From the NCBI GenBank assembly GCA_017436135.1, contig JAFSDQ010000017.1, positions 1-64,000 of the forward strand: a stretch of 64,000 nucleotides of DNA, given 5' to 3'. Position 1 is the first letter of the stretch, and each line of letters begins with the position of its first letter. Below, piece after piece: positions 1 to 63,064 of this stretch. The position numbers were made by a program, and so were the translations under genes. The notes beneath the pieces were generated by a model. It worked only from the letters and a program-made list of their open reading frames with translations. It was not told where the DNA came from and searched no databases. The stretch comes from Clostridia bacterium. Its GTDB lineage: Bacteria > Bacillota_A > Clostridia > Monoglobales > Monoglobaceae.

Positions 1-432
1 AGCATTTACAAATCTTATAGAATAGTTTGGCTTTTCAAACCTTCTTGACGAATGTCCTCTTACTCTGATCATAACTTCGCCCATACTTTTTGCATTATCC
101 GAAAGATGATTATATTCCTGCTTGTTGTCGATTACATCAAGCGATGCTCTTATGGTTGTAGTCCCATCTGCTGCAAGAGTATAATCTATAACATTATACT
201 CCTCATCGTAAATGGGTTTTCCCGGGATTTCCGTTCCGTTTGTATTGATACTTACAATGGGCAGGTGCGTACAAATAGAGTCGTTCGTATGGGTTTTGCA
301 CACCTCTTTTTCTTCTGCCATAATATGCTCTATATATCTTGTGCCGTTATCTTCCGGCATAATAAAACTTATACAAAGTACCGTGATCAGCACCAGGGCT
401 GTAACAGACATTCCTATTATTTTATATTTCAA
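1..432 (-). CDS. CotH-like kinase family protein (N-terminal part; runs off the window)
   Basis: This is the first 144 codons of a gene that continues beyond position 1. A TTG start at 432 is chosen because an AGGAGG ribosome site sits 8 bases upstream. A hydrophobic N-terminal segment (about residues 4-22) suggests a signal anchor. Near residues 125-144 the chain reads IRVRGHSSRRFEKPNYSIRF, which resembles the start of the CotH domain (RGNSS...KK.Y.I). CotH proteins are atypical kinases, and the Bacillus homologue phosphorylates spore coat protein. It is the last gene of a VTC-DUF4956-CotH operon headed by a c-di-GMP riboswitch, so a surface or coat modification role is inferred. The catalytic region lies outside the window. 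Confidence 0.72.
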   Translation of the reverse strand, partial: MKYKIIGMSVTALVLITVLCISFIMPEDNGTRYIEHIMAEEKEVCKTHTNDSICTHLPIVSINTNGTEIPGKPIYDEEYNVIDYTLAADGTTTIRASLDVIDNKQEYNHLSDNAKSMGEVMIRVRGHSSRRFEKPNYSIRFVNA

Positions 433-59152: not shown

Positions 59153-59401
59153 TTAAATTTCTTCCATCTTTGCAATGCATTCTCTGCAAACCCTTTTGTC
59201 AAGAAAAGTAACTACGTCCGAGGCACTGCCGCAGAAAATGCAGGCAGGCTCATACTTTTTTATAATTATAGAGTCATCCTCAACATAAATTTCCATAGGG
59301 TCTTTGCAATTTATTTTTAAGGTCCCCCTCAACTCTTTAGGCAAAACAATTCTGCCTAATTCGTCAATTTTTCTTACAATTCCCGTAGATTTTATAGCCA
59401 T
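59153..59401 (-). CDS. AbrB/SpoVT family transition-state regulator
   Basis: An 82-residue DNA-binding protein. The N-terminal swapped-hairpin domain reads STGIVRKIDELGRIVLPKEL, the AbrB signature. The C-terminal part has CIFCG and CRECI pairs, which could bind zinc. AbrB proteins repress stationary-phase and sporulation genes. Start 59401 is chosen because AAGGAG lies 10 bases upstream. Confidence 0.92.
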   Translation of the reverse strand: MAIKSTGIVRKIDELGRIVLPKELRGTLKINCKDPMEIYVEDDSIIIKKYEPACIFCGSASDVVTFLDKRVCRECIAKMEEI

Positions 59402-59522
59402 ATCAATTTTTCTCCTTTTCATTTCCTGATTTTTGTCATAATAATAACATAAGAGAAAATTGATGTCAAGAAAATTTTGGAAAATTTTTAAAAAATTGTA
59501 AAAAAATTGAATTGTTTGGAAA

Positions 59523-61463
59523 TTATAGTAAAATTTTTACATTAAAATTACAGTTTGAGAATGTTTTGTCCCAATTAAAGTCCTCCCATTGCCTTTGAGT
59601 TATGCAGCTTAATTTAAAGTGTCTGCCAATGCCTAAAATATCGCAATTCTGGTATGCAGTCTTATAAAGAAAGGCTTCTGCCCTTGCCTCCAGCATTTCC
59701 TCAAAGCCATGGGGAATTTGGGGTGAGTCGGATTTAAGGTAAACAGAAAATTCTATCAAAGGAGACTTTTCTGTTATCCGCATTTCGGGCTTGCCTTTGC
59801 TTGAAACCACATAGCTTTTTCCCATATATTCTATTGCAACACCATGCAAATCTCCCTGAAGAAGCTTGTATGTGACTCCATCCTCGGCATTTACAATCTC
59901 TTTCATAATTCCATTTGAAAAAATTCCCATTCCCGAAAGTCCGTCAGCATTTACAACAGGGATAACCCCATCGTAAGAGGAATCAAGGCTTCTCCCCACA
60001 AACTCCCGCAATTCAGTTATGGGAGCAGATGGCACATCCCGATTTCTGAAAAAGAGCTCATAATACCTTACCGTACTTTCCTCCAAGGTAGGATTTACCG
60101 AAAGGAGGTAGCCCATTGCAGACTCGGATAGGCAAAGGTTTGTCCCGGGTCGGATTTCCCTTTCGTGGAGCAATAACTCTCCATGCTTTAAAGCATCCTC
60201 CTTTGCCACATCAAAGGATAATACAATTACCTTAAGGTGAGTCATCATAACATCCTTGCTAATCAGCTGTTTAAGCTTATCCCGGGCAAGGAAATAATCC
60301 TCTGCTTCTACCACTATATTATCAACAGTTTTGTTCTTCTCATCAGAAGATGTGGAATTTTCCTGTGCCTTTTCTTCTGCACCTATGCTTCCCCCCGATT
60401 CAAGAGGGTTTGATACCTGAAAGGTATATTTATAAGCTTCAGCCTCTCCTTTATCTATCCCTATAGCAATAACATAGGCATTCTCCTCTATCTCACTGCT
60501 GTCATAGCATCCGCAAAGAGAAAAACACAAAACCAGGCATAAAACAGATGCTGTCACTCCTTTAGACTTTAAAGCAAGGGACTTTATGTTTTTCACTAAA
60601 ATACTCAAAACCAGTGACATAAACAGTATCCCTGAAACAATGGTTGCTGTATGGTACAAGGTGTCAAGGCGAAGAGATACCTTTCCAAAATTTGCTGTTT
60701 TGGTAAGAGGATATATGGGAAGACTCATTTTCTGTGCCAGCTCCCAGGGGGAATTAAGCGCCATTGCCGTCACTACAATTACATTTACTGCCGCCCCAAG
60801 TATTGCGGAGAGCATTACCGTTTTCTTAAAAGAAAAATTGTTGTTGTGCTTTGGAAGAAAAAATATAACCAAAATATCCGAATACAAAAACAACGTCTGC
60901 AAGCCCTTGCCGAAAACTCTCCCGACTCCTGTTCCTAAAATCGGCGTAAGGTTAAATATGTCAGAATACCTTAAGCTCAATACCGCAATCAATGTAAGCA
61001 CAACCCCAACACCGATTGCAAAAAGGGAATGAAGCCTCCTTACAGCCTTTTCGCCGCAAACAAGAATTACCACACTTCCAAGGAGAAGAAAAAAACCTAT
61101 AAACCACATGGGAGAGGTGATATACGAAACCGTTTTCAGGGCTTTGCAAACAGCGTAAAGTCCGTAGCAAAGAGAAAATCCGAAATATATAGCCGCCAAT
61201 GCAGAAACCCCTTTGGCAGGAGCGCTTCCATACTTTTCCTTTATTACCTCCATAAGTCCAACCTGGGAATAGGGGGAATAGAGCTTGAGTAAAACCCACA
61301 AAATTCCCAAAAAAATCAATGCTGTAAATATAGCCGTCACCCAAGAAGCAGAACCGCTGTTTTTGGCAAACACTGCAGGATAGTGAGTAAAAATTTTATA
61401 TACAACAGAATTAAAAACCATACATCCAAGTTCTAATCTGCCCATTGAATATTTTGTGTCCAT
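59523..61463 (-). CDS. Fused GerAB-GerAC spore germination protein
   Basis: A 646-residue single open frame that joins two subunits of a germinant receptor. Residues about 1-300 form a polytopic GerAB-type permease with at least eight visible helices, opening YSMGRLELGCMVFNSVVYK. Residues about 305-646 form a GerAC-type domain. At the junction a hydrophobic stretch ends in LCGC (Cys319), exactly like the lipobox of free GerAC, followed by YDSSEIEENAYVIAIGIDKG, the GerAC opening. Start 61463 is chosen because GGAAG lies 6 bases upstream; the stop of gerAA is 20 bases away. In most spore formers B and C are separate genes. Confidence 0.87.
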   Translation of the reverse strand: MDTKYSMGRLELGCMVFNSVVYKIFTHYPAVFAKNSGSASWVTAIFTALIFLGILWVLLKLYSPYSQVGLMEVIKEKYGSAPAKGVSALAAIYFGFSLCYGLYAVCKALKTVSYITSPMWFIGFFLLLGSVVILVCGEKAVRRLHSLFAIGVGVVLTLIAVLSLRYSDIFNLTPILGTGVGRVFGKGLQTLFLYSDILVIFFLPKHNNNFSFKKTVMLSAILGAAVNVIVVTAMALNSPWELAQKMSLPIYPLTKTANFGKVSLRLDTLYHTATIVSGILFMSLVLSILVKNIKSLALKSKGVTASVLCLVLCFSLCGCYDSSEIEENAYVIAIGIDKGEAEAYKYTFQVSNPLESGGSIGAEEKAQENSTSSDEKNKTVDNIVVEAEDYFLARDKLKQLISKDVMMTHLKVIVLSFDVAKEDALKHGELLLHEREIRPGTNLCLSESAMGYLLSVNPTLEESTVRYYELFFRNRDVPSAPITELREFVGRSLDSSYDGVIPVVNADGLSGMGIFSNGIMKEIVNAEDGVTYKLLQGDLHGVAIEYMGKSYVVSSKGKPEMRITEKSPLIEFSVYLKSDSPQIPHGFEEMLEARAEAFLYKTAYQNCDILGIGRHFKLSCITQRQWEDFNWDKTFSNCNFNVKILL

Positions 61464-61483
61464 AGATTTCTTCCTTTCAAAAA

Positions 61484-63004
61484 TTATTCCATCCATTTTC
61501 TGCTGATGCGTGGTTGCTTAATGGGGTTTTGAGTTTTAAGATTTCGGGGTCTGGTTTCCTTTTTCCAGATTGGTTTCACAAGGAGAGCATCTATGCTTCC
61601 ATCACCGTCTTTAGGTGTAATCGGGGACAAAAAAGGTACTCCGTAGGTGGAAGAACAGGAAAGGAAAGCAAGGGTAATAAAAGATGCACACACTATCCCC
61701 AAAAGCCCTGCAAGACTTCCGAAAATAATAAATATAAATTTCATCAAAGATACCGAGCGGGAAAGTGCCACCGATGGATTAGCATACGCCCCAAGCCCTG
61801 CCACTGATACAATTATAATAGAAATAGGGCTTACAATATTTGCCTCAACAGCCGCCTGTCCTAAAATAAGACCCCCGATTATACCCAAGGTAGAACCCAC
61901 AGGGCTTGGGATTCGAATAGACGCTTCTTTTATAAGCTCAAAGGCAAGCTCCATCAGAACAAGCTCTATTACCAAGGGAAACGGCACAACCTCCCGACTT
62001 GCCTCTATGGCAAGCAAAAGGTCTGTGGGAAGTATTTCATGATGAAAAAGCATAATTGCCACAAAAAGCCCCGGAAGAAGCAGAGAAAGTCCAATTCCCG
62101 CAAGCCTTATAAGACGCATAAAGTTTGCCTCGGGCACTCTTACATAGTTATCTTCTGATGCCTCTATCAAATCAGCTGCTGTGGTTGGAAGAACAAGAAC
62201 AAAGGGGCTTCCCTGAACAATTATCACAACCTTGCCCTCTGCAAGCATGGATGCCGCCCTGTCAGGCCGTTCTGTCTTGAGGGTATGGGTTATGGGATAA
62301 AAGGTTTTTGTTTCAAGAAGCATCTCTATATCACTTGAAGAAAAAATATAATCTGTATCTATATTCGAAAGCCTGTACCTGACCTGGGAAACAAGGTCCT
62401 TGTTTGTTATGCCTTTGATATAAAGCATTGCACAGGGAGTGTTGCTTTTTGTCCCAACCTTTATGTTTTCGGCAATTAGATTGGGGTCTTTTAAGATTTT
62501 GCGTATAAGAGCAAGGTTATTCATTATAACCTCGTTAAACGCCTCCTGGGGACCTGAAAGACTGGCTTCCCGTATAGGCTGATTTACGCCTCTGCTCCCC
62601 CAGCCTTTTACATCTGCCGAAAAGCAACAATCACACCCGTCAATAAAAATAAGGCAATGTCCAAATGTGACATCCTCGGCTATTTCTTCAAAGGTTGTCT
62701 TCATTGACAAGGGCGCAAGTGTAATAAGTTTTTTATAAAATATATTATTAAGACTTTCTCCCTCCGGCATAGGTCCGTTTTTTTGAATAAGCCCCCGCAT
62801 AATGTCACGGTTTATAAAGGTCTTGTTTACAAGGCCGTCATAAAACACCAAAAAGCCCTGAAAAGTCCGTTTGTCAAAGGTAACCTCAAATTCACGCATA
62901 ATAAAGTCAAAATTGCCCGGCACCCCAAAGCGCTCTTTTACTGTTTTTAAATTTTGGGAAATATCCGTGCTTATCGGAGTTTTTGTGTTCTTTCCATCTT
63001 CCAT
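61484..63004 (-). CDS. gerAA: GerA family spore germination protein (A subunit)
   Basis: A 506-residue protein of the GerAA family. It has an N-terminal soluble domain (about 1-270, with CLIFIDGCDCCFSADVKGW and REASLSGPQEAFNE), then about five membrane segments (about 290-440, including GLSLLLPGLFVAIMLFHHEI and GSTLGIIGGLILGQAAVEAN) and a basic C-terminal tail. It forms the nutrient-sensing channel of the germinant receptor with the B and C subunits. Start 63004 is chosen because GGTGG lies 7 bases upstream. The fused GerAB-AC gene follows directly. Confidence 0.95.
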   Translation of the reverse strand: MEDGKNTKTPISTDISQNLKTVKERFGVPGNFDFIMREFEVTFDKRTFQGFLVFYDGLVNKTFINRDIMRGLIQKNGPMPEGESLNNIFYKKLITLAPLSMKTTFEEIAEDVTFGHCLIFIDGCDCCFSADVKGWGSRGVNQPIREASLSGPQEAFNEVIMNNLALIRKILKDPNLIAENIKVGTKSNTPCAMLYIKGITNKDLVSQVRYRLSNIDTDYIFSSSDIEMLLETKTFYPITHTLKTERPDRAASMLAEGKVVIIVQGSPFVLVLPTTAADLIEASEDNYVRVPEANFMRLIRLAGIGLSLLLPGLFVAIMLFHHEILPTDLLLAIEASREVVPFPLVIELVLMELAFELIKEASIRIPSPVGSTLGIIGGLILGQAAVEANIVSPISIIIVSVAGLGAYANPSVALSRSVSLMKFIFIIFGSLAGLLGIVCASFITLAFLSCSSTYGVPFLSPITPKDGDGSIDALLVKPIWKKETRPRNLKTQNPIKQPRISRKWME

Positions 63005-63034
63005 ATCTGCACCACCTTTTATTATCATAAAAAG

Positions 63035-63064
63035 TATTATTTCCCTTTTTTGTATATATATTCA
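63035..63064 (-). promoter_or_regulatory. Candidate sigma-G-type promoter of the ger operon
   Basis: Minus strand TGAATA, 17-base spacer, AATAATA. This is close to the forespore sigma-G consensus (a TGAATA-like -35 and CATACTA-like -10), and it lies in the only gap ahead of gerAA. The match is partial and the region is AT-rich. Confidence 0.4.

Follow-up and report, generated by a model that had tools for sequence, protein, structure and literature searches.

Does a single open frame really join two subunits of a germinant receptor, the permease GerAB and the lipoprotein GerAC, and what would then become of the lipoprotein signal that lies inside the chain? The question is raised by a locus in a 64,000-nucleotide stretch of contig JAFSDQ010000017.1 from a Clostridia bacterium, here called the window. 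An earlier note, made from the letters of the window, had described one frame running from a GerAB-like permease into GerAC, a GerAB part shorter than usual, the lipobox LCGC retained at the joint (Cys319) and an unusual receptor architecture. These observations were borne out: the frame has 646 codons and three Pfam domains above their cut-offs, the cysteine is encoded by TGC at 60507-60509, the GerAB part ends after TM8, and two genes, one of them a fused AB-AC gene, take the place of three. That note had not foreseen the loss of TM9 and TM10, the clade-wide occurrence of the fusion or the existence of unfused relatives with a shortened GerAB. The features are as follows.

59523..61463, minus strand: gerAB-gerAC fusion gene of 646 codons and a stop (open frame; Pfam)
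60567..61463, minus strand: residues 1-299, permease part of GerAB type with the APC-fold helices TM1-TM8 (Pfam, AlphaFold2, alignment with AdiC and ApcT)
60510..60596, minus strand: joint, residues 290-318, a basic stretch followed by a hydrophobic, signal-like helix that stands where TM9 would be and closes with the lipobox (alignments, sequence)
60507..60509, minus strand: Cys319 codon TGC, predicted diacylation site with a predicted LspA cut just before it (cysteine in 106 of 106 fused rows)
59526..60509, minus strand: GerAC part, residues 319-646, with GerAC_N at 321-505 and the C-terminal domain at 510-644 (Pfam, Foldseek)
61470..61477, minus strand: ribosome-binding-like AAAGGAAG just before the ATG of the fused gene at 61463 (sequence)
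61484..63004, minus strand: gerAA, directly upstream of the fused gene (Pfam GerA, PF03323)
63035..63064, minus strand: sigma-G-like promoter TGAATA-17-AATAATA before gerAA
63078..63105, minus strand: terminator-like hairpin with 12 pairs, 9 of which are G-C, separating the operon from the next gene upstream

The operon and its genome context

The PF03323 match (501.1 bits, 61484-63028) adjoins the fusion on the same strand, and 20 nt separate the gerAA stop from the ATG at 61463. According to the open-frame list, an alternative in-frame ATG at 61496 would lengthen the fused gene to 657 codons; the gerAA start at 63004 is preceded by AAAGGTGGTG, and a start at 63028 is also possible. The sigma-G-like pattern occurs once in the whole window against 0.24 expected occurrences, with at least one match in 21 of 100 shuffles, and terminator-like sites in the region number 7 compared with 5.2 in shuffles. 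Because a full GerAA, AAAGGAAG, the sigma-G-like promoter and the terminator-like hairpin lie upstream of the fusion, the locus reads as an ordinary GerA operon, but one of two genes instead of the usual three. The fused gene is best explained as the second gene of a two-gene operon for a GerA-type germinant receptor. Downstream on the same strand (59153-59422) lies a frame for an AbrB/SpoVT-N-like protein of 89 amino acids whose tail carries two CxxC pairs.

Of the 12 genomes searched, 11 have SpoVA genes and 10 have the gene for the spore protease Gpr (9 and 8, respectively, among the ten with the fusion). Every fused genome counted has a single GerA gene, namely G001-G006 and the 14 fused members of a set of 26 genomes from the order of G003 (Ructibacterium). 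The fused receptor is therefore likely to be the sole GerA-type receptor of the organism that carries it, with the proviso that genes can be missing from draft and metagenome assemblies. A Ruminiclostridium genome (G008) has seven GerA matches. That a sole receptor is a consequence of the fusion was rejected, as all 12 unfused genomes of the 26-genome set likewise have one GerA gene.

The permease half

Pfam Spore_permease (PF03845) covers residues 15-313 with 63.7 bits (cut-off 23.4), and the match to NCBIfam TIGR00912 (endospore germination permease) stays below its cut-off (88.7 versus 139.55 bits). In the AlphaFold2 model of the fused protein the permease helices lie between residues 9 and 295, the last being TM8, whereas an unfused control relative has confidently predicted helices at 310-329 and 332-367, corresponding to TM9 and TM10. 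The matches to bacterial transporters end correspondingly early: the fused protein covers residues 3..320 of ApcT and 5..313 of AdiC compared with 3..370 and 5..383 for the unfused control. Several VIA rows on SLC7 chains run far past TM8 (for instance to 487 in 8wnt_B); since such ranges give just the first and last aligned residue, our reading of the fold rests on the bacterial transporters instead.

Instead of the ten helices of an APC-fold GerAB, the fusion thus has TM1-8 followed by a signal-like helix. Judged from alignments and models, the GerAB half lacks TM9 and TM10, the GerAC signal sequence occupies the place of TM9, and there is no eleventh helix. The earlier note had offered the old signal sequence as the last membrane helix; the predicted topology fits, the helix replacing TM9 rather than being added to a complete set. 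A study of GerAB (PMC8038838) describes ten helices and suggests that TM9 and TM10 have little influence on the model structure.

Shortened permeases also occur in unfused form. In two relatives (L040 in G019 and L041 in G020) a GerAB of about 300 amino acids ends right after TM8, and gerAC has an apparent ATT start that lies behind GGGGGTGA and overlaps the gerAB stop. Two others (L042 in G032 and L043 in G033) have a GerAB of 304 amino acids that ends after TM9, without TM10, and is overlapped by gerAC. A further fused protein (L044 in G034) carries about 29 extra residues between TM6 and TM7, where the profile match breaks between model positions 204 and 218.

The joint and the GerAC half

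The basic n-region, short hydrophobic region and lipobox of GerAC are all present in the fused proteins. Over the 12 residues that precede the hydrophobic stretch the median net charge is +4, and the median distance from the last charged residue to the cysteine is 16 residues, as it is in 28 unfused GerACs. The lipobox was counted in 106 fused rows, which represent 97 distinct joints because some genes were counted both as protein and as locus; L016-L039 and six near-duplicates (L014, L061, L071, L072, L077, L078) were left aside. The cysteine is present in all 106 rows, position -1 is glycine in 103 and serine in 3, and position -3 is leucine in 104, valine in 1 and methionine in 1. In the window protein (L-C-G-C) position -2 is cysteine, as it is in 51 of the 106 fused and 7 of the 28 unfused rows. 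The standard lipobox has [ASTVI] at -2 (PMC8048626), which excludes this residue.

In a 56-row alignment (55 of the 90 homologue matches described below plus the window protein), with 41% as the median pairwise identity, 20 of the 646 columns are invariant, C319 among them. No column between residues 291 and 315 reaches 90%, which leaves the lipobox as the sole strongly conserved part of residues 291-319. On this evidence the lipobox is under selection, with the rest of the signal helix variable.

Within the signal-like helix, cysteines recur on one helix face at positions -10, -6 and -2 (60%, 69% and 44% of the 97 distinct joints, compared with 7%, 14% and 25% of the 28 unfused GerACs). The extra conserved cysteines at -10 and -6 mean that the helix may serve a structural function as well, and they hint that it packs against something.

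Beyond the joint, Pfam recognizes Spore_GerAC_N (PF25198) at 321-505 (91.5 bits, cut-off 27) and Spore_GerAC (PF05504) at 510-644 (44.6 bits, cut-off 23.6); the NCBIfam Ger(x)C model TIGR02887 remains below its cut-off (131.9 versus 163.25 bits). GerBC (3n54) ranks first in Foldseek with the GerAC part (E 7.4e-08, TM-score 0.56 by target, rmsd 11.4). A single-sequence search of the PDB with the fused protein gave no match, and a profile search gave weak matches only, GerBC among them at E 0.09. In place of the N-terminal signal sequence of GerAC, the fused protein has its signal after eight helices.

Conservation and distribution

As the earlier note had proposed, the same two-domain architecture was sought in relatives, along with the stop codon at the joint that would have exposed an error. 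The four best homologues (98%, 88%, 63% and 60% identity) are all full-length fusions, and no such stop was seen; where one stop each was counted, in G003 and G006, its coordinates show it to be the gene's own. Half-profiles found both parts in 85 of the 90 homologue matches, although in P0077 the permease is represented by its later part only. The five others are P0087-P0090 and P0020, a protein of 360 amino acids that lacks the permease and matches 55% of the query, namely the GerAC part, at 92% identity; it may be a contig-end fragment, the longest contig having 2,331 bases. A second search with a distant fused member returned 20 matches; 15 of these were new, and 13 of the new ones are fused. 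Three homologues bear a name in their source, in each case that of a plain GerAB/ArcD/ProY transporter; annotation can thus hide the architecture.

A first scan of genome contigs found no relative. Fifteen loci were obtained from a genome collection: nine are fused (L001-L009; eight from metagenome assemblies and one, L005, from the isolate Ructibacterium gallinarum DSM 107454), and six (L010-L015) have separate gerAB and gerAC genes whose frames overlap when called from the first start codon. The fusion is also present on a contig of 2.76 Mb (G022). Within the order of Ructibacterium it occurs in 20 of 51 genomes, 19 of them with continuous matches and G034 with a fused frame of 655 residues that was matched in two pieces. 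Of the remainder, 24 match unfused or partly and 7 show no match, so that 44 match overall. In 391 genomes sampled evenly from the class and searched at E <= 1e-60, a threshold that weaker, independent fusions would escape, continuous matches occurred in 11 and a part match in G034, all within the order set, and no fusion was found outside the order; in G156, G070 and G007 the match covered GerAC only. GerAA was found beside the fusion in 21 of 24 fused loci (L001-L009, L044, L060-L072 and the window, near-duplicates counted), and in the other three (L004, L062, L072) the contig ends there. By these comparisons the fusion is a conserved feature shared within one clade of bacteria and not confined to a single genome.

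Origin of the fusion

Nineteen fused loci form one clade both in a GerAA tree of 43 rows (support 100/98) and in a three-protein tree of 35 rows (100/100), which points to one origin of the fusion. The GerAA tree omits L004, L062, L072 and L073, for which no GerAA was found, duplicates, and L011, L057, L059 and L075; the three-protein tree additionally omits eight distant rows (L010, L015, L055, L056, L058, L074, L076, L079). The window groups in the GerAA tree with four assemblies labelled uncultured Ruminococcus, and its GerAA is 74% identical to that of L001.

The GerAA tree, with weak support (86/66), makes the unfused pair with TM1-8 only (L040/L041) the sister group of the fused loci. 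In the three-protein tree the pair falls outside that position (92/88), the sister placement not being rejected (p-AU 0.18). Given these conflicting placements, TM9-TM10 may have been lost before or after the fusion. Grouping the TM10-less L042/L043 with the fused clade was rejected (p-AU 0.003), and GerAB was therefore probably shortened more than once.

Proposed maturation of the fused chain

By sequence and models, the fused protein consists of TM1-8, a positive linker, the signal helix, the lipobox and a complete GerAC, in this order, and the signal helix runs from inside to outside, as a signal sequence must after an even number of helices. We lean slightly towards reading the fused protein as a GerA-family subunit made as a membrane polyprotein that would be diacylated on Cys319 and probably cut there by LspA. 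The chain would be inserted co-translationally, Lgt would diacylate Cys319, and LspA would then cut before this residue. The signal helix would stay behind as the ninth, C-terminal helix of GerAB, with GerAC left beside it as a lipoprotein in a 1:1 ratio, and both parts may assemble with GerAA into a nutrient-gated channel. Nutrient binding would take place in the TM1/TM6 pocket of the permease half, the site that has been argued for in B. subtilis GerAB. Somewhat more tentatively, and with a shade less than an even chance, we propose that the lipoprotein pathway in this way releases an APC-type sensor that keeps the cut helix as its ninth, together with a lipoprotein partner in a 1:1 ratio, and that this sensor works without TM9-TM10.

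The earlier note had offered two fates for the joint, a fixed single chain or lipidation and cleavage at Cys319; on balance, processing is the likelier. On a chain already anchored by several membrane helices a lipid would add nothing, and the retention of the whole lipobox thus speaks for processing, as does the invariance of its cysteine (106 of 106). Since the cut signal helix would remain on GerAB, a ninth helix and cleavage are compatible. Lgt and LspA genes were present in all ten genomes searched, nine of them fused, and in 9 and 10 of 14 control genomes, respectively; as both enzymes are common in bacteria, their presence is weak evidence. In the standard pathway, as set out in PMC8048626, Lgt modifies the lipobox cysteine and LspA cuts before it. 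According to a review (PMC11841064), signal peptidase II is presumably kept from cutting C subunits once diacylglycerol has been added to them; this contradicts that pathway and counts against an LspA cut. A search of the open-licence literature found no published report of Lgt or LspA acting on an internal signal or lipobox.

The main rival, to which we assign an appreciable probability well short of even, is that no cut takes place: the former signal helix would serve as TM9 and tether GerAC covalently to the permease, whether or not Cys319 bears a lipid, in a layout like that of mammalian heteromeric amino acid transporters, where a single-span heavy chain rests on the light chain. The topology would fit, and the helix is conserved beyond the lipobox in its cysteines at -10 and -6. 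The top VIA row places model residues 2..318 on AdiC 5..344, and residue 344 presumably lies as far along as TM9 of AdiC. In the literature GerAC-GerAB is likened to heteromeric amino acid transporters (PMC8617281), and lipidated C subunits are said to be able to retain their signal peptide (PMC11841064). Against this stand the AlphaFold helix at the joint, which comprises just 12 residues (304-315) at low confidence (block means 55 pLDDT versus 86-92 for TM9 of the control), and the length of the helix with its lipobox, which resembles unfused lipoprotein signals and not a span of 20 residues. Moreover, the unfused GerAB of L040/L041 has nothing in place of TM9 after TM8, so that TM9 need not be replaced.

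The other explanations fare worse. It is highly improbable that the cell still produces a short GerAB and a separate GerAC through internal initiation or frameshifting near the joint: the gerAB and gerAC frames do overlap in unfused relatives, and an in-frame ATG, GTG or TTG precedes the cysteine in 12 of 21 fused loci, but the frame is continuous and none of these starts, searched from 34 to 12 codons before the cysteine, has any of the ribosome-binding-like motifs sought, for which reason an internal start near the joint was rejected. Very unlikely, too, is that the fusion is a relic and its owners no longer germinate through it. Eight of the nine loci L001-L009 do come from metagenome assemblies, with R. 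gallinarum as the one isolate, but 20 columns are invariant despite pairwise identities down to 22%, each genome has a single GerA gene, and SpoVA and Gpr persist in 9 and 8 of the ten fused genomes searched. The chance that a sequencing or assembly error removed a stop is negligible: nothing was found in its favour, and for the family it is refuted by the recurrence of the architecture in many assemblies, including the isolate DSM 107454 and the 2.76 Mb contig.

Relation to known systems

GerAB with its APC fold and GerAC are already known, as is the acylation of C subunits by GerF (Lgt), mentioned in PMC11841064. A search of the open-licence literature met no report of a GerAB-GerAC fusion. 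PMC8617281 describes the function of GerAC as not established. A natural AB-AC fusion indicates that both can be made in a 1:1 ratio and where their ends meet, and a two-gene receptor that is the sole GerA-type receptor of a genome offers a simpler object for structural work. Were the joint processed, it would also serve as a test case for the action of Lgt and LspA on internal signals.

Compared with GerAB of the Spore_permease family (PF03845, APC superfamily), the fusion lacks TM9-TM10, runs on into GerAC and scores below TIGR00912. With GerAC/Ger(x)C proteins (PF25198, PF05504; GerBC 3n54) it shares both domains and the lipobox, and 3n54 is its best Foldseek match; by contrast, its signal is internal, after eight helices, and it scores below TIGR02887. 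The GerA receptor of B. subtilis is described in PMC11841064 as made of AA-AB-AC trimers, with pentamer versus hexamer being disputed. Like that receptor, the present one has GerAA and the other two parts in one operon with a sigma-G-like promoter; unlike it, it is encoded by two genes and not three, with AB and AC at 1:1 by construction.

In layout, the fusion may be compared with the heteromeric amino acid transporter LAT1-4F2hc, in which an APC permease has an ectodomain partner with a single span, and chains of heteromeric transporters occur among the fold matches of the fused protein. LAT1 and 4F2hc come from two genes and are linked by a disulfide, whereas the fusion needs one gene. A likeness of another kind is offered by FbcH, the cytochrome b/c1 polyprotein of Bradyrhizobium, in which a single chain with a signal inside it likewise comprises a membrane protein and an exported protein. 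The proteins are unrelated, FbcH being a substrate of type I signal peptidase and the fusion carrying a type II lipoprotein signal.
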